Below, in pieces: positions 9,594 through 18,493 of a stretch of 64,000 nt of DNA. Every line of letters starts with the position of its first letter. The stretch's first letter is position 1. Below the pieces are notes generated by a model. The model saw only the letters and a program-made list of their open reading frames with translations, was not told the origin of the DNA and made no database searches. Position numbers and translations under genes: made by a program. Location of the stretch: positions 1-64,000 of the forward strand of contig CAIJVU010000079.1 of assembly GCA_903824185.1 (NCBI GenBank). The letters run 5' to 3'. Origin of the DNA: an uncultured Hyphomicrobiales bacterium (GTDB taxonomy: Bacteria > Pseudomonadota > Alphaproteobacteria > Rhizobiales > Beijerinckiaceae).

Positions 9594-9844
9594 GTACATT
9601 TTAAGAAAACTTGCACGATCAAGAAAAAGGGCTGGGCTGTAAGCCATGTCCCTTCTTGATTGGCACACGCCCTTGATCCTTGGCCAATCCCAAAATCTTT
9701 AACAAACAGTCCAAGCAACTTGCTGCGCCGGAAGGCATCACAAAAGAGGGGCTTGGAATCTGGTCTGTCTTCAACAAAGATCTGGCTCGCAATTGGCTCC
9801 AAACGAGTGGGGTCGATCATCCATCATCCTTTGGCAGGGCGCTT

Positions 9845-10708
9845 ATGAAACACCAGACCATCACCATTCAGGATGCCAGCTTCCATGTTGTGATAGCCGG
9901 GCAAGGGATGCCTTTGCTCTTCATCCATGGCTGGCCTGAATTTTGGCTGACATGGCAACCTGTGATGGAACGACTCTCAGACCGCTTTATGGTCATAGCA
10001 CCCGACTTAAGAGGTTTTGGCGACAGCGATAAGCCTCACGGCGCATGTGGTCCATCCGATCATGCCCGCGACATGGTGGCCCTGATGGACGCGATGAAGA
10101 TCCAGACATTCGGTGTCATCGGCCATGATGTGGGAGGGGCCGTCATACAAGCATTGGCGCGCTTGGCACCGGCCCGCCTCAGGGGGCTTTTTCTCTTTAA
10201 CTTTGTCTATCCGGGGATCGGAGGCAGGATGGGATCACCCGATCGCCTCAAAGAAATTTGGTATCAATCATTTAACCAGATGGACATTGCCCCTGCCCTG
10301 ATCGGCGCCTCACGCGAAAGTTGCAAAGCCTATATCGGTCATTTTTTGCACCATTGGGCTCATCAAAAACATGCCTTCGCTGATGTTATGGAAGAATTCA
10401 TTGATAACTTTATGAAACCCGGCAATCTCGAAGGGGGATTTGCCCATTATAAAGCCAGCCATGCCGGACGCATAGCCATGATGAAGGGCGAGGCACCCCC
10501 TTTAGCGCCGATCACAACGCCGACCTGTGTACGATGGTCACGGCATGATCCTTTATTTCCCTATGAATGGACCGACAAGCTACATGAAACATTTGCAGAT
10601 CTTGATCTCGCCCCTTTTGAAAATGTCGGTCATTTTCCACACAGAGAAAACCCCAACCAAGCGGCACAAGAAATCGCTGCTTTTTTCTCAACCCATTCCG
10701 GATACTGA
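9845..10708 (+). CDS. Alpha/beta hydrolase, epoxide hydrolase/dehalogenase type
   Basis: This 287-residue cytosolic hydrolase has the oxyanion-hole motif HGWPEFW at residues 29-35 and a nucleophile elbow GHDVGG with Asp95, so an ester-forming aspartate rather than serine. Asp235 (RHDP) and His263 (VGHFPH) complete the triad. The Asp nucleophile points to epoxide hydrolase, haloalkane or fluoroacetate dehalogenase chemistry; the exact substrate cannot be told. I start at ATG 9845, preceded by ggcaggg; the frame is open further upstream into the tRNA-proximal region but without family similarity. Confidence 0.85.
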   Translation: MKHQTITIQDASFHVVIAGQGMPLLFIHGWPEFWLTWQPVMERLSDRFMVIAPDLRGFGDSDKPHGACGPSDHARDMVALMDAMKIQTFGVIGHDVGGAVIQALARLAPARLRGLFLFNFVYPGIGGRMGSPDRLKEIWYQSFNQMDIAPALIGASRESCKAYIGHFLHHWAHQKHAFADVMEEFIDNFMKPGNLEGGFAHYKASHAGRIAMMKGEAPPLAPITTPTCVRWSRHDPLFPYEWTDKLHETFADLDLAPFENVGHFPHRENPNQAAQEIAAFFSTHSGY

Positions 10709-10834: not shown

Positions 10835-11620
10835 TTAAGTGTTGGGTAGCTGTTTGTTCGGCCCGAACATCAAGCCCGCCGCCAAAAACCCGCCATCGAC
10901 ATTCAAAGTATGGCCTTGCAGATAACGCGCCTCATCCGAACAAAGAAAGACGGCCGCATCGGCGATTTCGGATGGGACGCCATAACGATCCATTGGTATC
11001 AAATAGTGATAGGCCTTGCGCGTTGCCTCATCATGCGCAAATTTGGCCATCTCAGTTTCAATGGCGCCGGGCGCGATGGCATTGACATTGATATGATGGG
11101 GTGAGAGTTCAACCGCCATCACTTTAGTGAGCAATTCCAGTCCAGCTTTGGCAGCCCCATAGGCAGACCGCCCATTGCCTCCGCGTTGCCCTGACAAAGA
11201 CGCGATATTGACAATTTTGCCGCCCCCACTTTTGACCATTTCCCGTGCGGCTGCTTGCGCCACCAAAAAGGCACCGGTTAAATTGATCCCGATGATACGG
11301 TTCCAATCCTCAAGGCTTGTTTCCAAAAACGGAATATTTCCGCCCACACCGGCATTGTTGAGCAAGAGATCAAGCCGTCCATAATCGCTCACAATGGCAT
11401 CCATCATGGCAGCAATCGACTGCGGGTCCGCCACATTCACCGCAAGCGCTTTGACATGTTTCAAATGCGGATCGAGACGTCGAGCGGCCTCTTCGGCGCC
11501 TTGCTGATTGATATCCGCGATGACAACAGTGGCGCCTTCTTTTAGAAAAGCGCTTGCCGTTGCAAAACCGATCCCTCTCGCGCCTCCGGTAACCAAGGCA
11601 ATCTTGTCTTTTAAACGCAT
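10835..11620 (-). CDS. SDR family NAD(P)-dependent oxidoreductase
   Basis: This 261-residue classical short-chain dehydrogenase has TGGARGIG near residues 11-18, NNAGVGG mid-protein and the catalytic YGAAKAG. It resembles sugar- or polyol-oxidising SDRs and FabG-like enzymes. The ATG at 11620 has a gggagaa Shine-Dalgarno sequence. It lies 22 bases downstream of the DUF1537 kinase gene, so it belongs to the RuBisCO-like/kinase transcription unit and may oxidise or reduce an intermediate of that sugar-acid pathway. Confidence 0.82.
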   Translation of the reverse strand: MRLKDKIALVTGGARGIGFATASAFLKEGATVVIADINQQGAEEAARRLDPHLKHVKALAVNVADPQSIAAMMDAIVSDYGRLDLLLNNAGVGGNIPFLETSLEDWNRIIGINLTGAFLVAQAAAREMVKSGGGKIVNIASLSGQRGGNGRSAYGAAKAGLELLTKVMAVELSPHHINVNAIAPGAIETEMAKFAHDEATRKAYHYLIPMDRYGVPSEIADAAVFLCSDEARYLQGHTLNVDGGFLAAGLMFGPNKQLPNT

Positions 11621-11642
11621 GGCTTTTCTCCCTTGAACTTTA

Positions 11643-13013
11643 TCATGACGCGGCCCCTGTCTTGGCACGCATAAAAATATCCGGTCCACCCACCTGACCG
11701 CCTTTGAGCAAGAGCTCCAATCCCTGATTGCGCGATGCCACACCATGCGCCCGACAAAGCGGTGCACCGGGGACCAAGGGCGCAAAGGCTGTCAAAGCGT
11801 CTATGCCGAGTTCCCGCGCCACACGGCCCGACGTATCGCCACCTGAAATCACCACACGTGTTACAGGATGTGCGCTCAATAACCGATTGAGCAAAATCCC
11901 TAATATTTGTCCTATCGTGGTGTTGAGCGTTTCAAAATCAAACGCCTGCTTGTCGAGAATCTGTTTAAAAGCCGCGACCGCCGGATCATCCGGCCCCTCG
12001 GCCGAAGAGATCAAGACATCCTGCCCTTTATGCAAGGCCTGTAATGCTTCTGCATATAACCTGTCTATCATCGCAGACCATAGGTTCTCATCGCCTAATT
12101 TTTTGAGATCGAGTGCAAAGGTCGCAAAGCCATGCGCCCGCGCATGCGCAATTTGTGCGGCCGTTGTGGGCGAAACAGACCCTGACACTGCAAGCAATTG
12201 CGAACAGGCTTGCGCCTGTTGAGGAGGCGCGGCGGGTTCAACCCATTTTTGTTGCTGCCAATAGGCAACCAAAGCGGCTTCGATACCTTGTGATCCGATA
12301 CAAAACCGCTGTTGATTGTTATGGACCCAGATAAGCCGACCGGCCTCAACGAGTGAACACGCATCCAGCATATCGAGCGCAATAATCCGTGCGCCCTCCT
12401 TGACTGCCTCGTCAAATGTTTTTGTTGCAAGACCTTTATGCATGGCCACAAAGTCAACCAAGCCGATTTTTAAATCGGTTTGCTTGGCAAGATGGCGCGT
12501 TAAATCGGCTTCATGCATGGGCGTGACAGGATGACGCGACATCACAGGATGGCGATCAATCCGATAGGCTTGCCCTTGTGCCATGGCAAACAGATGGCCG
12601 AAACATTGATACCGCCCCATGCCAAGATCGCCGATCAACATCGGAATAGGGCCAGAAAATTTTTGTGCGGCGAGCTCTGCAGCCTTGCCGATCGAGCCTA
12701 TCTCCGGCGATGAATCAAAGGTCGAACATACTTTGTAATGGATGATCGGCGCCTTTGTTTTTTGCAATACCGAATAGTAATCAGGAAGATGCGCCTCCAT
12801 CCAATCAGGGGAGCGCGCGCGGGCATCGCCCGCTATGCCGATGACGCGCGCCTGTGAAAAATCCGCGAGCCGTTCTTGGCTTGGCGCGTCCAAAAACAAA
12901 ACCGTCTCCAAGCCCGCAAAGGCTGTGACTTCCATGACGGCTGTCGATCCGGTGAGATCATCCCCATAATAGGCAATCAACGGAGACGTGTGGGGCCATG
13001 ACTGCGTATTCAT
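11643..13013 (-). CDS. Four-carbon acid sugar kinase family protein (DUF1537; OiaK/OtnK-like)
   Basis: The protein has 456 residues with the two-domain kinase fold of the former DUF1537 family. The N-terminal sugar-acid domain starts with YYGDDLTGSTA (Asp18-Asp19 motif) and the C-terminal nucleotide domain carries VISGGDTSGRVARELG. Characterised members phosphorylate 3-oxo-tetronates, D-threonate/erythronate or 3-oxo-isoapionate. The ATG overlaps the stop of the RuBisCO-like gene (ATGA). That pairing is the signature I know from apionate catabolism, where the kinase makes 3-oxo-isoapionate 4-phosphate for a RuBisCO-like decarboxylase. The specific substrate is inference. Confidence 0.85.
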   Translation of the reverse strand: MNTQSWPHTSPLIAYYGDDLTGSTAVMEVTAFAGLETVLFLDAPSQERLADFSQARVIGIAGDARARSPDWMEAHLPDYYSVLQKTKAPIIHYKVCSTFDSSPEIGSIGKAAELAAQKFSGPIPMLIGDLGMGRYQCFGHLFAMAQGQAYRIDRHPVMSRHPVTPMHEADLTRHLAKQTDLKIGLVDFVAMHKGLATKTFDEAVKEGARIIALDMLDACSLVEAGRLIWVHNNQQRFCIGSQGIEAALVAYWQQQKWVEPAAPPQQAQACSQLLAVSGSVSPTTAAQIAHARAHGFATFALDLKKLGDENLWSAMIDRLYAEALQALHKGQDVLISSAEGPDDPAVAAFKQILDKQAFDFETLNTTIGQILGILLNRLLSAHPVTRVVISGGDTSGRVARELGIDALTAFAPLVPGAPLCRAHGVASRNQGLELLLKGGQVGGPDIFMRAKTGAAS

Positions 13014-14287
13014 GCATGCATCTCCAAAGCCAGACGAAGATCTTGATCATGGGCTGAAGCCGTTGCAACCGATTGTCCGGCCAGCGCCAAATCCCAGGCC
13101 AGACGCAAAGACCGGACACCGGCCGAAAGCCCGTTGGGATGACCCAAAATACCGCCCCCCGCCGTAAAAATAAGATCCGTTGATTGCAGCGCTTGATAGG
13201 TTCTCTCAACCACATGCGCTGTTTGGCCTGACGAGAAGACCGGCATGGCCACACAGGGCTTGTGAGCAAAAAGCGGCGTGTGACAGGATTTCGCTGATTG
13301 GATCACACTGTCATCATCTTCAGAAAATTTATTCGATAGTCCGTTGACATGCATATGATCAGCACCCGCCAGCCGCCAAATTTTTTGCCACGCGATATAG
13401 GACCACCCAAGCAGAGGATGGCGGTTCATATAGCCCCAACCATTGCGATGCGCATGAATAGGCAATTGTGAAAAGCGCGCCAATTCAATGAAACCGGTCA
13501 GCCCGACTGAATGAATGCTGGCCATCAAACAGGTTGCACCATGCGCCAGCAAAACATCATGCCTCTTTCGCATTTGATCAAGATCACCCGTGACATTAAA
13601 AGCAAACATGACCTTGCGGCCTGTCTTGTCTGCATGGTGATGAATCACCTGCATCACCTGCTTAACACGCTCATCAAAAGGACAGCCGATCCCATCCGAT
13701 TGCAATTCATCGTCTTTGATAAAATCGATACCGGCTTCGCAGAGCGCCTTGACCAATTGCGCGGTATCATGAGCAGACAAACCAATACTTGGCTTGATAA
13801 TGGTACCGATGAGGGGTCTTTTTTCGACCTGTGTCAAAGCCCGCGTGCCCTCGATCCCGAAACGGGGGCCTCCATAGGCATCCGCAAAGGCATCGGGCAA
13901 GCGCAGATCAAGCAGCTTCAATCCGGTGACCTGCTTGAGCTCAAATAAATTACCGGCAATTGTGGCCAACAAATTGGGCAAGGAAGCGCCGATATTCGTC
14001 AAGGGCCAACGCAGGGTCAGTCTCGCACGCCTCAGCCTGCGACCCGCCTCCTGTGTCCATCCCGTTGTCGGGAAGGACGGGGTCGTCACTGCATCCTCCA
14101 AGACCGTGAGGGCGGTGACACTTGCGGCATATTGGCTTTTGAGCTTTTCCGTTTCTCCGGGGATGGCGATAAACGTCCCGCTGGATTGCTCTCCCGCCAT
14201 CATGGCGGCTACTTTTTCAACCTCGCTATATGTTTCAAGCAAATAGTCGGCTTCAATCCACCGCGACAGGGGTTCATCGATTAACAT
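13010..14287 (-). CDS. RuBisCO-like protein (form IV; OiaX-type decarboxylase candidate)
   Basis: This 425-residue homolog of the RuBisCO large subunit retains the metal-binding carbamate-lysine motif KDDE at residues 191-194 and Lys165 in GTIIKPSIGLS. The canonical second lysine of KPK is Ser167. The loop-6 region reads NGLSNKFSED with Lys320 in the usual place. The phosphate-binding AGGGILGHPNG is recognisable. It is therefore a form IV protein, not a CO2-fixing enzyme. Its coupling to a DUF1537 kinase suggests decarboxylation or cleavage of a phosphorylated 3-oxo sugar acid, such as 3-oxo-isoapionate 4-phosphate. I start at 14287 because aaaggg and agaaga precede it; an earlier ATG at 14335 lacks a Shine-Dalgarno sequence. 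Confidence 0.88.
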   Translation of the reverse strand: MLIDEPLSRWIEADYLLETYSEVEKVAAMMAGEQSSGTFIAIPGETEKLKSQYAASVTALTVLEDAVTTPSFPTTGWTQEAGRRLRRARLTLRWPLTNIGASLPNLLATIAGNLFELKQVTGLKLLDLRLPDAFADAYGGPRFGIEGTRALTQVEKRPLIGTIIKPSIGLSAHDTAQLVKALCEAGIDFIKDDELQSDGIGCPFDERVKQVMQVIHHHADKTGRKVMFAFNVTGDLDQMRKRHDVLLAHGATCLMASIHSVGLTGFIELARFSQLPIHAHRNGWGYMNRHPLLGWSYIAWQKIWRLAGADHMHVNGLSNKFSEDDDSVIQSAKSCHTPLFAHKPCVAMPVFSSGQTAHVVERTYQALQSTDLIFTAGGGILGHPNGLSAGVRSLRLAWDLALAGQSVATASAHDQDLRLALEMHA

Positions 14288-14603
14288 TCTTCTATGCCCT
14301 TTGATGGCTGCACAGAGCGCACAGCCCATCGTCATTCCATTTTTTACTTTATACTGTCACCAATAATGGCATGAAATCCCGCAGGGATGAAAGGTGAATT
14401 TAAAAGGAAATAACACGCCCTAGGGCGATTGAGCCTGATGACCCTCAACCGCCATCCATGCGTGAGGCATCATCCGCTTGCTTATTTTACCATACAGCCT
14501 CAAAATCTATAGGTCTTTAAATATGTTTGATGGATGCCTGTTTACTGACGGCCTCTGATTCTTAAAATGCGCTCCATTGCTTGCAAGAGAAGGAAAACGG
14601 ACC
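14288..14603. other. Divergent intergenic region, RuBisCO-like gene / SDR
   Basis: This 316-base A+T-richer stretch separates two divergently transcribed genes of the sugar-acid cassette. It must hold both promoters and probably an operator. I see no coding frame with a ribosome site and no regulator gene nearby. Confidence 0.5.
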
Positions 14604-15395
14604 ATGAAAACCCTTGAAGGGCGTGTCGCTTTGGTTTTTGGCGCAGGTTCGGTTGGCCCAGGCTGGGGTAATGGAAAAGCATCGGCTGTCAGCTATGCCC
14701 GCAAAGGGGCTCTGGTTGTCTGTGTCGATGTACATCTCACAGCAGCCCAAGAGACGGCGTCTTTGATTGCGGCCGAACAGGGGCAAGCCATAGCTTTGTG
14801 TTGCGATGTGACAAAACTAGAAGAGGTTGAAGCCTGCGTAGACACAACCCTGCAAACATATGGGCGCATCGATATTTTGCACAATAATGTTGGTCACGCG
14901 AAAATGGGCGGGCCGCCTGATCTCACGGAAGAGGACTGGCGCCGCGAAATGGACCTTAACGTCACCGGCATGTTCTATGCGTGCAAATGTGTGATCCCGA
15001 TCATGCTGGAGCAAGGCAAAGGCGTGATCACCAATATTTCATCCGTGGCGGGGATCCGTTACACAGGCTATCCTTATTCTGTTTATTATGCGGCCAAAGG
15101 CGCGGTGAACCAATTTACCGTGGGGCTGGCGCTGCAATATGCACGACAGGGCATTCGTGCCAATGCCATCATGCCCGGCTTGATGGACACACCCCTCATC
15201 TACCAGCAAATCTCATCCAACTATGCCTCCATGGAAGACATGGTGAAAGCCCGCCATGAAGCTGCCCCCATGGGACGAATGGGAGCAGGGTGGGATATTG
15301 CCAATGCCGCCGTTTTTCTTGCCAGTGATGACGCATCCTATATCACCGGCGTGTGCCTGCCTGTGGATGGCGGCCTGACCATGCGCGCAGGCTAA
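14604..15395 (+). CDS. SDR family oxidoreductase with an expanded glycine motif
   Basis: This 263-residue short-chain dehydrogenase has catalytic YYAAKGA and C-terminal AVFLASDDASYITGVCLPVDGG, both standard. The cofactor loop reads FGAGSVGPGWGNGKA instead of TGxxxGIG, an insertion that also occurs in a subgroup of sugar-oxidising SDRs. NNAG is replaced by NNVG. A gaaggaaaa Shine-Dalgarno sequence precedes the ATG at 14604. It is divergent from the RuBisCO-like gene and may supply or remove an oxo-sugar acid for that pathway; this is inferred from position only. Confidence 0.8.
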   Translation: MKTLEGRVALVFGAGSVGPGWGNGKASAVSYARKGALVVCVDVHLTAAQETASLIAAEQGQAIALCCDVTKLEEVEACVDTTLQTYGRIDILHNNVGHAKMGGPPDLTEEDWRREMDLNVTGMFYACKCVIPIMLEQGKGVITNISSVAGIRYTGYPYSVYYAAKGAVNQFTVGLALQYARQGIRANAIMPGLMDTPLIYQQISSNYASMEDMVKARHEAAPMGRMGAGWDIANAAVFLASDDASYITGVCLPVDGGLTMRAG

Positions 15396-15910: not shown

Positions 15911-16136
15911 GCAGGAAGCCCTCTTCTATCTTAAGTTGTAACATCAACTCTATATTTGAATCGGTTGATATTTAACCCCATAGCGCATTAAACGCAAAAA
16001 AATCTATCGCAATCAGTAAATTAGAGAATATGAGACTTTGTTGCTGATGCATTGACATTTTTATTGTCATCGGTACTGTTATTACTGCTTCATTTTGTGA
16101 TTTTGTTGCGTGCTAGACATTTTTTTCTAATTGCAC

Positions 16137-17498
16137 ATGGACAAAATGGATTACCAAAGCCCCAAATTTCAACAATCCATCGAGCTCATTCACGAGCAGA
16201 ATTATTCTGCAGCATGTGTGCTGCTCGAAGAAGTATTAACTGAAACACCATCACTTGAAGCAGCATATATTCTGAGCACTACGCTGTTTTTGGCCCGCGA
16301 CTTTATCAAAGCAATAGACACGCTCAATGCGCTCATTGAGTATGACGCTGATAACCCTAAATACTATAAAACAAAATTTTATTATTTTTATGATTTGCAT
16401 CAGATGGAGGCCTTAAAAGAAGATGATTTTCAAAAATTTTCCAACTTTTTTTTGCTAGAGATTTATGAGAAAATCATCCAACCCGAATCCAATTCTGAAT
16501 TTAAATTTTTACTCTCCCAAATCTACCGCAAGATGAATAATATTCCGCGCATGTTGGACTCGTTGCGACAAGCACTTGTTACCGATCAGGTCTCGCGTGA
16601 ACGCATCTACAGCCTTGATGAGGAAAGTCTAAAATATTTCATGAATTTTGAGTCACTCCGCCGCTCTCCGGCTTTTGACTATCCAAACCATATCGCTTTT
16701 GAAACATTCGCCAAATGCAATGCAAAATGCACCTTCTGTGTTTATCCGGATATGGCAAGACAGGGTACTATGATGTCCATGGACCTCATACATAAAATCA
16801 TTTCTGACCTGCAAGAAATACCTCGCCATCATCCATTTCAATTGTCGCCATTTGCTGTGAATGAACCCTTTTTAGACAAACGTTTTTTCAACATTTTAGA
16901 TCTCATCGCCGATAAATTACCCCACGCGAAGATCACGCTTACAAGCAATGCTTCACCCATCAACGAATCAAATCTCAGACAGCTTTCCAAATACCAAATC
17001 GACTATTTATGGCTTAGTGTTATTGATCATCGCCGCGATATCTATGAAGACAAAATGAAGCTTAATTATGATCGATTGATTGAACGGCTGGATTTAATGC
17101 ATCAGGCAAAAAGCGATGGCTGGTTTGATAAGCGTATCGTATTGTCACGCCTTAAAGATAATAGCGAACACGACGAGGCCTACATCAATTTTTTCAATGA
17201 CCGTTATCCGCTTTTTGAAACTTGCTTATGGCCTTACGCAAACTGGATTGGCCGAACAACCAATGCGATTACAAGTGAGATAAAACCAATTCCATGCAGC
17301 CACTGATTTGAAATTCGGATTGATGCCAATGGCATTGTCCAACATTGCTGTATGGATGGACATAGTGAATACCCTTGGGGTGACGTGAACAAAAATTCTA
17401 TTCTAGAAATATACAACCAAGAGAGTTACCGCAACTTACGGCGCGGAGGAAAAACACGACTGGATGTTGAGCCGTGCAATCGATGCAACGTCATATAA
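16137..17498 (+). pseudogene. Radical SAM/SPASM protein interrupted by an in-frame TGA
   Basis: The N-terminal 150 residues are helical and TPR-like. A radical SAM domain follows, with the 4Fe-4S motif CNAKCTFC at residues 194-201. The frame reaches TGA at 17304-17306, codon 390. In the same frame it continues for 63 more codons to TAA at 17496, encoding the rest of a SPASM-type cluster domain (IRIDANGIVQHCCMDG, then EPCNRCN). The stop lies between PCSH and FEIRI, where relatives carry Trp or Leu. A one-base nonsense mutation, a sequencing error or UGA read-through would all explain it. The gene is markedly A+T-rich compared with its neighbours, lacks a Shine-Dalgarno sequence and separates the EVE gene from gpsA, so recent acquisition is likely. 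A dyad tgaca-n7-tgtca lies at 16053-16069 upstream. Confidence 0.75.
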
Positions 17499-17506
17499 TC
17501 CGCTTA

Positions 17507-18493
17507 TCATTCCGCCCTAATAGGTCTTGTCATCAAAAGATCGATCATCGCATCAATCGTTTCTTGCCCTGACAATACAGCCGCCACCGCCTCGGCAATC
17601 GGCATTTCAATCCGTTTCTCACGAGCCATGGCCACCAGCACCGGCGCCGTAAAAGCCCCTTCGGCCAGCTTGCCATCCATGGCCTCGTCAAGCGGAACCC
17701 CGCGGCCCAGTGCTTCCCCGAAGGCAAAATTTCTTGATTTGACTGACCCGCTTGTCAAAACCAAATCACCCAGACCCGATAAACCCATCAATGTTTCCGC
17801 AGCGCCACCCCAGGCTTCGGCAAAGCGGCTCAATTCCGCAAAGCCTCTTGCGGTTAATGCCGCACGGGCACTTTCGCCAAGCCCACGCCCTGCGACAATC
17901 CCGGCTGCCACCGCCAAGACGTTTTTGGCGGCACCACCGATTTCAACACCACGAAGATCTGTAGAATGATAGAGCCGGAAACGAGGCGAGGATAAATAAT
18001 GCGCCCAGTCATGAGCCAGATGCGCTTCATGGCAGGCCAGCACAACTGCTGTGGGCAAGCCCCGTCCGACATCCTCGGCAAAACTCGGGCCTGATAAAAT
18101 CATCACGGGATGGCCGGTTAACCTGTCGCTGATCAGATCCGACAAAAACCGTCCCGTGGTCCGATCAAGCCCTTTGGTGCATAAGATGATGGGCAAAGAC
18201 GCAGGCAGTTGCGGCTGCAAAAGTGTGATCATCGCCATCGTCTGCTGGGCCGGCACCACCAATAAAAGCGCATCGGCCTTATGCAGGGCTTGCGTTAAAT
18301 CCGGCTCGGGATGCACCTCCGGATGAAGCACAACACCGGGCAATCGCCGCTCGTTGCGCCGACTTTTTTGCATCTCACGAATTTGGGCCTGATCACGCCC
18401 CCACAACGTCACAGTCTGACCAGCCAGTGCTGCAGCATTGGCCAAAGCCGTTCCCCATGCACCCGCCCCGATCACCGCAACATGATGTTTCAT
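17507..18493 (-). CDS. gpsA: Glycerol-3-phosphate dehydrogenase [NAD(P)+]
   Basis: It reduces dihydroxyacetone phosphate to sn-glycerol 3-phosphate for phospholipid synthesis. The N-terminal Rossmann motif is [10 protein letters not shown] at residues 8-17. [24 protein letters not shown] (with the catalytic lysine) and the C-terminal MPIAEAV are all present. Length 328 is normal. The ATG overlaps the tsaD stop (ATGA), giving the tsaD-gpsA order usual in Rhizobiales. Its stop faces the radical SAM remnant eight bases away. Confidence 0.96.

Follow-up and report, generated by a model that had tools for sequence, protein, structure and literature searches.

The DNA analyzed here (the window, 64,000 nucleotides) lies in contig C79 of the 2.8 Mb draft genome of an uncultured Hyphomicrobiales bacterium and carries genes for a RuBisCO-like protein (RLP), a DUF1537 kinase and two short-chain dehydrogenases (SDRs), designated SDR-A and SDR-B. 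We drew three conclusions about these genes. First, the four-gene module is a conserved, duplicated operon type. In addition, it is probably a real, conserved variant of a known RLP-kinase pathway, one that has SDRs where the oxidoisomerase would stand. Finally, we favor, with a little better than even confidence, the reading that the four genes encode an SDR-entry variant of an isoapionate-type branched sugar acid pathway, whose reactions, substrate and products we infer from the observed gene order, duplication, conservation, clade, residues and co-occurrence. The four genes were verified in the window sequence at the following coordinates.

10835..11620, minus strand: SDR-A, short-chain dehydrogenase, third gene of the operon (Pfam adh_short_C2, 240.5 bits)
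11643..13013, minus strand: DUF1537 kinase, OiaK-like, with Ala246 (Pfam SBD_N, 160.9 bits, and NBD_C, 126.1 bits)
13010..13013, minus strand: ATGA overlap of the RLP stop and the kinase start (from the sequence)
13010..14287, open reading frame (ORF) to 14335, minus strand: RLP (Pfam RuBisCO_large, 207.5 bits)
14288..14603, no strand: intergenic region from which RLP and SDR-B diverge, presumed to serve as promoter (from the sequence)
14604..15395, plus strand: SDR-B, with the extended glycine loop GAGSVGPGWGNGKA (Pfam adh_short_C2, 197.8 bits)

As judged from the gene arrangement, RLP, kinase and SDR-A likely form one operon; the gap between kinase and SDR-A is 22 bp, and SDR-B is transcribed divergently from RLP. 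For RLP, the ATG at 14287 (425 aa) was preferred over the ORF end at 14335 on account of the homologues and a purine-rich site. For SDR-A we took the ATG that follows a GGGAG site; the ORF as listed extends to 11785. The same genome holds a second, fuller copy of the module on contig C58 (L003, 1530-13666). The window and C58 proteins are 85% identical for SDR-B, 73% for RLP, 71% for the kinase and 83% for SDR-A, and the 4-base overlap of RLP and kinase in C58 is identical in kind to that in the window. The C58 copy comprises SDR-B, a LysR regulator, a fused TRAP QM gene, a DctP gene, RLP, kinase, SDR-A, a second DctP gene, two alpha/beta hydrolases and a BKACE gene (hydrolases and BKACE labeled by Pfam; LysR, TRAP and DctP by eye). 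The preliminary description of this DNA had reported the lack of a transporter, which is true of the vicinity of the window but not of the genome, since TRAP genes, and also the LysR gene, flank the C58 copy. Neither a LysR-type box nor a shared stretch of more than 10 bases was found between window positions 14288-14603 and the C58 upstream regions.

We compared 94 RLP loci: the two of this genome (window and C58), 12 taken from relatives, and the 80 best matches of a longer genome scan; two of the 94 are duplicates. In Microvirga lupini (L048), RLP and kinase are surrounded by LysR, SDR-B, SDR-A and TRAP or DctP genes, and the same surroundings were seen in five family relatives (L172, L173, L174, L177 and L182). 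LysR and SDR-A, but no match to SDR-B, were seen in two named Methylobacterium loci (L047 and L108). Homologues of both SDRs are present in 11 loci (one contig accounts for two of these); 9 further loci have only SDR-A and 10 only SDR-B. The recurrence of the four-gene set within the genome and in other bacteria makes it more than a chance assembly. No RLP match was found in four genomes of the same genus; an RLP of the broad group is present in 78 of 377 genomes of a family sample (E 1e-100, OiaX and VOC-paired types included). The preliminary description had also read the ATGA overlap as coupling kinase to RLP, and the comparison agrees: a kinase homologue is present in 89 of the 94 loci and stands beside RLP in most neighborhoods drawn.

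Both SDRs match Pfam adh_short. SDR-A appears by eye to be of the NAD type, with an Asp after strand 2, and 19 further RLP loci (one contig counted twice) contain homologues of at least 58% identity. The modified glycine loop noticed earlier in one of the SDRs belongs to SDR-B and, as its homologues indicate, is a family trait. Among 22 homologues of at least 52% identity (the window's own included, one locus counted twice), 14 read GAGSVGPGWGNGKA, three have E for P, and four have SSG and one SIG for SVG. The nearest PDB chain to SDR-B by sequence is 5jc8 (224 bits).

The place of the SDRs was assessed by recording which genes lie near RLP, that is, within 9 kb of it, with an SDR cut of 38% identity set with the window's own SDRs. 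A PGDH_C protein was near RLP in 53 of the 94 loci, a homologue of SDR-A or SDR-B in 16, both in one and neither in 24. The two duplicate contigs removed, the counts for 92 loci were 53, 15, 1 and 23. This near exclusivity accords with the earlier proposal that two SDRs occupy the usual place of the oxidoisomerase, and the conserved SDR-type gene set supports the variant route proposed with it. The PGDH_C protein is probably the oxidoisomerase ApnO. It had no match to an NCBIfam model; we took it as ApnO because it lies in an NCBI-named oiaX cluster beside kinase, triose-phosphate isomerase (TIM) and RpiB genes, and because the PGDH_C protein encoded on contig C26 of the present genome matches KARI_N, the N-domain of ketol-acid reductoisomerase, which fits an oxidoisomerase. 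In 23 genomes examined as a whole (several of them drafts), PGDH_C was present in 3 of 13 with an SDR-type locus, in 4 of 4 with an ApnO-type locus, in the one with both (L037) and in 0 of 5 with neither (L087 and four more). The SDR-type genomes without it include Alsobacter soli and Methylobacterium soli. TIM and RpiB genes were seen only beside RLPs of the OiaX clade (3 of 94 loci). The earlier statement that no erythrulose-phosphate isomerase stands beside RLP proved correct, as no LerI or DerI was seen up to 9 kb from either RLP of this genome. A genome-wide search, made for LerI and not for DerI, gave no clear orthologue; the best match (38% over residues 40-244 of 267) was taken for the housekeeping TIM. 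RLP, kinase and a PGDH_C gene also stand together on two haloarchaeal plasmids (Halobacteria, L131 and L148).

The best NCBIfam model for the window RLP is OiaX (NF042437), at 420.4 bits against a cut-off of 700. A quick tree was built from 95 rows (90 of the 94 loci and 5 plasmid rows) and rooted at the midpoint, as no RuBisCO outgroup was obtained. The window and C58 RLPs pair with a support of 100 and then join Microvirga and Variovorax rows (93) in a large clade. The OiaX rows, including the NCBI-named OiaX of R. etli, form a separate clade of four rows (SH-aLRT 100). Membership of RLP in OiaX was ruled out by the score below the cut-off, the separate clade and differing residues. The link to OiaK/OiaX drawn in the preliminary description therefore stands as kinship, OiaX and OiaK being the best NCBIfam models, but not as membership of the OiaX clade. 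We think that the large clade is OiaT-like, OiaT being the name of the transcarboxylase/hydrolase of Xanthobacter; this placement is indirect, as the tree includes no characterized OiaT sequence. Beside an RLP of an OiaT-like clade, erythrulose-phosphate isomerases would not be expected. The Ancylobacter RLPs are 63-64% identical to the window RLP, and Ancylobacter and Xanthobacter belong to the same family.

The active site was compared with those of four RuBisCOs at 17 sites, in RuBisCO numbering; E60, T65 and W66 were not counted because the patterns did not match. The window RLP retains N123, K175, K201, D203, E204, H294, R295, H325, H327, K334, S379, G381, G403 and G404, and departs at three sites (K177 to Ser, H298 to Trp and G380 to Ser). 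The OiaX rows depart in addition at N123 (Gly), H327 (Gln) and S379 (Gly), all kept in the window RLP. The carbamate Lys and the Mg ligands of the KxDE motif are present as K207, D209 and E210 of the 441-aa ORF. In our reading, this fuller set of RuBisCO residues suits the Xanthobacter transcarboxylase/hydrolase better than plain decarboxylation. The predicted model (predicted local distance difference test, pLDDT, 89.0) has a RuBisCO-like fold, and its nearest solved structure is 3nwr, the RLP of Burkholderia fungorum (template modeling scores 0.91/0.95, 48% identity), which by eye looks nearer to the RLPs paired with VOC proteins. In five loci (L038, L129, L149, L150 and L151), LacI, TRAP and VOC-family genes accompany RLP and a divergent kinase, with ApnO and SDR not near; the VOC protein may be the entry enzyme there. 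Most of the annotated plasmid records compared name the RLP generically as a ribulose-bisphosphate carboxylase large subunit family protein.

The kinase likewise remains under the cut-off of OiaK (NF042436), with 520.9 bits for the window and 513.3 for C58 against 700. Its model (pLDDT 88.8) matches the DUF1537 structure 5dmh in Foldseek. We scanned 125 kinase columns at least 80% conserved in ApnO-type loci against five SDR groups drawn from the quick RLP tree. Position 246, a Tyr that the model places in the opening turn of the helix following strand 236-240, was the sole column changed in all five groups; none of 213 RLP columns was so changed. In this discovery set, Tyr246 was present in 50 of 52 ApnO-type, 0 of 15 SDR-type and 6 of 19 "neither" loci and in the single locus with both. 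Both kinases of the present genome lack it. In two genomes with both locus types (G061 and G070), the ApnO-linked kinase has Tyr246 and the SDR-linked kinase has Ala or His.

The pattern was then read in held-out loci. A family sample was used because the class-wide sample was thin (2 of 210 at 1e-80, one being this genome). Forty regions were fetched (one from the class sample), 33 of them at <97% to the discovery set, and matches below about 550 bits were mostly omitted. Tyr246 was found in 9 of 11 ApnO-type loci with the kinase read, compared with 3 of 13 SDR-type loci (p 0.012). Held-out plasmid and extra genome loci gave 10 of 14 and 2 of 7 (p 0.16). The two held-out sets share two ApnO-type Microvirga loci, each with Asn246; the distinct loci pooled gave 19 of 23 and 5 of 20 (p 0.0002, Fisher). 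These p values are too small, because the loci are related and a single SDR clade is not rejected, so that the change may be one event. The change at Tyr246 hints at a different kinase substrate in SDR-type loci, with held-out support that is moderate and phylogenetically non-independent. On the quick tree, parsimony counted 4 ApnO/SDR changes, and a tree in which the eight alphaproteobacterial rows were constrained to one group scored 16.7 log units above the free tree. We do not claim several independent swaps from ApnO to SDR, as approximately unbiased (AU) tests are consistent with one clade.

On the favored reading, a carboxylic sugar acid would enter the cell, at the C58 locus via the TRAP transporter. 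SDR-A would oxidize its 3-hydroxyl with NAD to a 3-oxo branched acid, and the kinase would phosphorylate a terminal hydroxyl. RLP would then remove the carboxyl with the assistance of the Mg-carbamate to leave an enediolate and, in the manner of OiaT, re-carboxylate the neighboring carbon and hydrolyze the product, to give 3-phosphoglycerate and a small hydroxy acid (glycolate if the substrate is C5). SDR-B would probably carry out an upstream oxidation. Excerpts of one published account (PMC6302742) describe RLPs that either decarboxylate or transcarboxylate/hydrolyze 3-oxo-isoapionate-4-phosphate, the latter in Xanthobacter; the individual OiaT steps given above are our own derivation from the reported products. 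The likeliest substrate is a 2-branched C5 acid. Pyruvate kinase is encoded in 2 of 7 SDR-type plasmid loci, and enolase and phosphoenolpyruvate carboxylase in one, which fits 3-phosphoglycerate as a product.

Several observations weigh against this reading. In 24 of the 94 loci, RLP has neither a PGDH_C protein nor an SDR homologue nearby. The genome has one PGDH_C/ApnO-like gene, on contig C26 (L137, 9785-10612), so the earlier statement that no oxidoisomerase is present applies to the surroundings of the window and not to the genome as a whole. This gene is solitary: the 20 kb read around it contain neither a kinase nor an RLP. Four same-genus genomes have neither PGDH_C nor RLP, and this shared absence suggests that ApnO may belong to the same pathway. 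A glycolate-oxidase (glcD)-like gene, whose product could use glycolate, scored 450 bits, short of the 568-bit cut-off, and 11 of 14 control genomes also match this model, so that the result says little. Tyr246 is an imperfect marker. The two Microvirga loci (Asn), a Variovorax (Asp) and an archaeon (His) make up the 4 of 23 held-out ApnO-type loci that lack it, and 5 of 20 SDR-type loci have it (Bradyrhizobium elkanii, Chimaeribacter, L189, L193 and L203). In the AU tests, grouping the SDR rows as a single clade was not rejected (p 0.80 and 0.38). The OiaT reading of RLP, moreover, was reached by the indirect placement described above.

The C26 gene supports a different explanation, ordinary D-apionate catabolism with scattered genes. 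Here PGDH_C would be the oxidoisomerase, the two kinase/RLP pairs would be OiaK/OiaT, and the SDRs would only make apionate from apiose or carry out side oxidations. The nesting of the window RLP among ApnO-type rows, and an SDR-B gene beside ApnO in L037 and its near-copy L184, speak for it as well. However, PGDH_C is missing from 10 of the 13 SDR-type genomes, both kinases here lack the Tyr usual alongside ApnO, and ApnO adjoins its own RLP and Tyr kinase in G061 and G070; in G060, a third such genome, ApnO lies close to the end of a contig, and the 10 kb read there show neither kinase nor RLP. We consider this explanation unlikely, though far from implausible. The OiaK-OiaX pathway of D-apionate was reportedly described by Carter et al. 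in 2018. Like the module, that pathway pairs a DUF1537 kinase with an adjacent form IV RLP, and OiaK and OiaX are the best models; the module differs in that both proteins are under the cut-offs, ApnO, LerI and DerI are not adjacent, and RLP is in another clade and has RuBisCO residues that the OiaX rows do not. The likeness to the OiaT route is drawn by inference from the RLP clade: no isomerases are needed, the active site is fuller and the Ancylobacter RLPs are similar. Here, SDR-A, SDR-B and LysR replace ApnO and a NanR-type GntR regulator, and the kinase Tyr246 is changed.

The boldest choice of substrate is hamamelonate (2-carboxy-D-arabinitol), whose phosphate is the night inhibitor of RuBisCO, or its lactone. 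SDR-A would form 3-oxo-hamamelonate, the kinase its 5-phosphate, and RLP would perform the last steps of RuBisCO. Loss of the bulky kinase Tyr would suit a larger substrate, and the hosts of SDR-type loci include legume-associated bacteria. Excerpts of papers citing Kim et al. 2018 (PMC8914248, PMC10176493 and PMC10173188) place an RLP in the D-hamamelose pathway of another bacterium, and one of them (PMC10176493 or PMC10173188) describes the substrate of this RLP oxygenase as 3-keto-D-ribitol-1,5-bisphosphate. By that description, and not by sequence, the likeness is that an RLP ends a branched sugar pathway. An excerpt of PMC9833046 presents 2-carboxyarabinitol as a leaf compound, and a reference title there equates hamamelonic acid 2'-phosphate with its phosphate. 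Direct evidence for a C6 acid is lacking, however, and a Limnohabitans metagenome-assembled genome (MAG) from Lake Baikal (L065) also has the SDR-type set; we regard the explanation as quite improbable. The full claim that the module consumes hamamelonate, that SDR-A would form 2-carboxy-3-ketoarabinitol, that the kinase product would be the six-carbon intermediate of RuBisCO minus one phosphate, and that RLP would be a catabolic enzyme of final cleavage seems to us slightly less probable again.

We judge it very unlikely that RLP is a decarboxylase of the OiaX type with a ketose phosphate as product, or that the pair acts on a linear C4-C5 acid. OiaX is the best model, one RLP has otnK and otnC nearby, and two others have genes that look Otn-like by eye; but the score, the clade, the key residues and the lack of a clear LerI orthologue in the genome all argue otherwise. 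In the OtnK/OtnC pathway for 3-oxo-tetronates a dehydrogenase precedes the kinase. As here, a DUF1537 kinase would be followed by removal of the carboxyl from a 3-oxo acid phosphate, with RLP instead of OtnC in the module. A separate kinase of the genome exceeds the OtnK cut-off (616 bits vs 350). Finally, the identity of RLP as the methionine-salvage enolase MtnW, which the preliminary description had raised as its refuting case, or as a CO2-fixing RuBisCO has next to no likelihood and was ruled out on family scores, because despite the common superfamily fold two MtnW models gave 155 bits (cut-off 513.6) and 194.2 bits (cut-off 409), the type III RuBisCO model gave 230.4 bits (cut-off 497.45), K177 is Ser and no salvage-type gene was recognized among the neighbors run through Pfam and NCBIfam, the tree itself containing no MtnW row.

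Around the module, an alpha/beta hydrolase gene at window positions 9680-10708 converges on SDR-A and shares only 27% identity with a C58 hydrolase, and for these two reasons was kept out of the module. Hydrolases, possibly lactonases, also occur at C58 and in an SDR-type locus of Cupriavidus, the Cupriavidus hydrolase being at 49% to its C58 counterpart. A protein with tetratricopeptide repeats and a radical SAM domain is encoded at 16131-17306. The GC content of 16001-18000 is 43.5%, compared with 51-59% in the remaining blocks of 1-40000. Elsewhere, a minimal set of SDR, RLP and kinase was seen in six betaproteobacterial MAGs of 1.8-3.0 Mb (L065, L073, L075, L083, L084 and L100), where kinase position 246 is His and PGDH_C matched in 0 of 6 genomes. 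In Acidobacteria, sphingomonads and a Bacteroidete, RLP-kinase pairs (L099, L113, L115, L117, L118, L121, L122 and L165) have no ApnO near, and several of these loci encode carriers (MFS or other) and Asp/Glu racemase-like proteins.

Among the literature matches listed, no description of an SDR-type RLP operon was found. The analysis marks out this operon type with testable handles, namely the transporter binding protein, the dehydrogenase, the kinase residue and RLP. If the favored reading is true, it would add an entry reaction to the few known RLP pathways. The RLP clades that retain most RuBisCO residues bear on the origin of RuBisCO chemistry.

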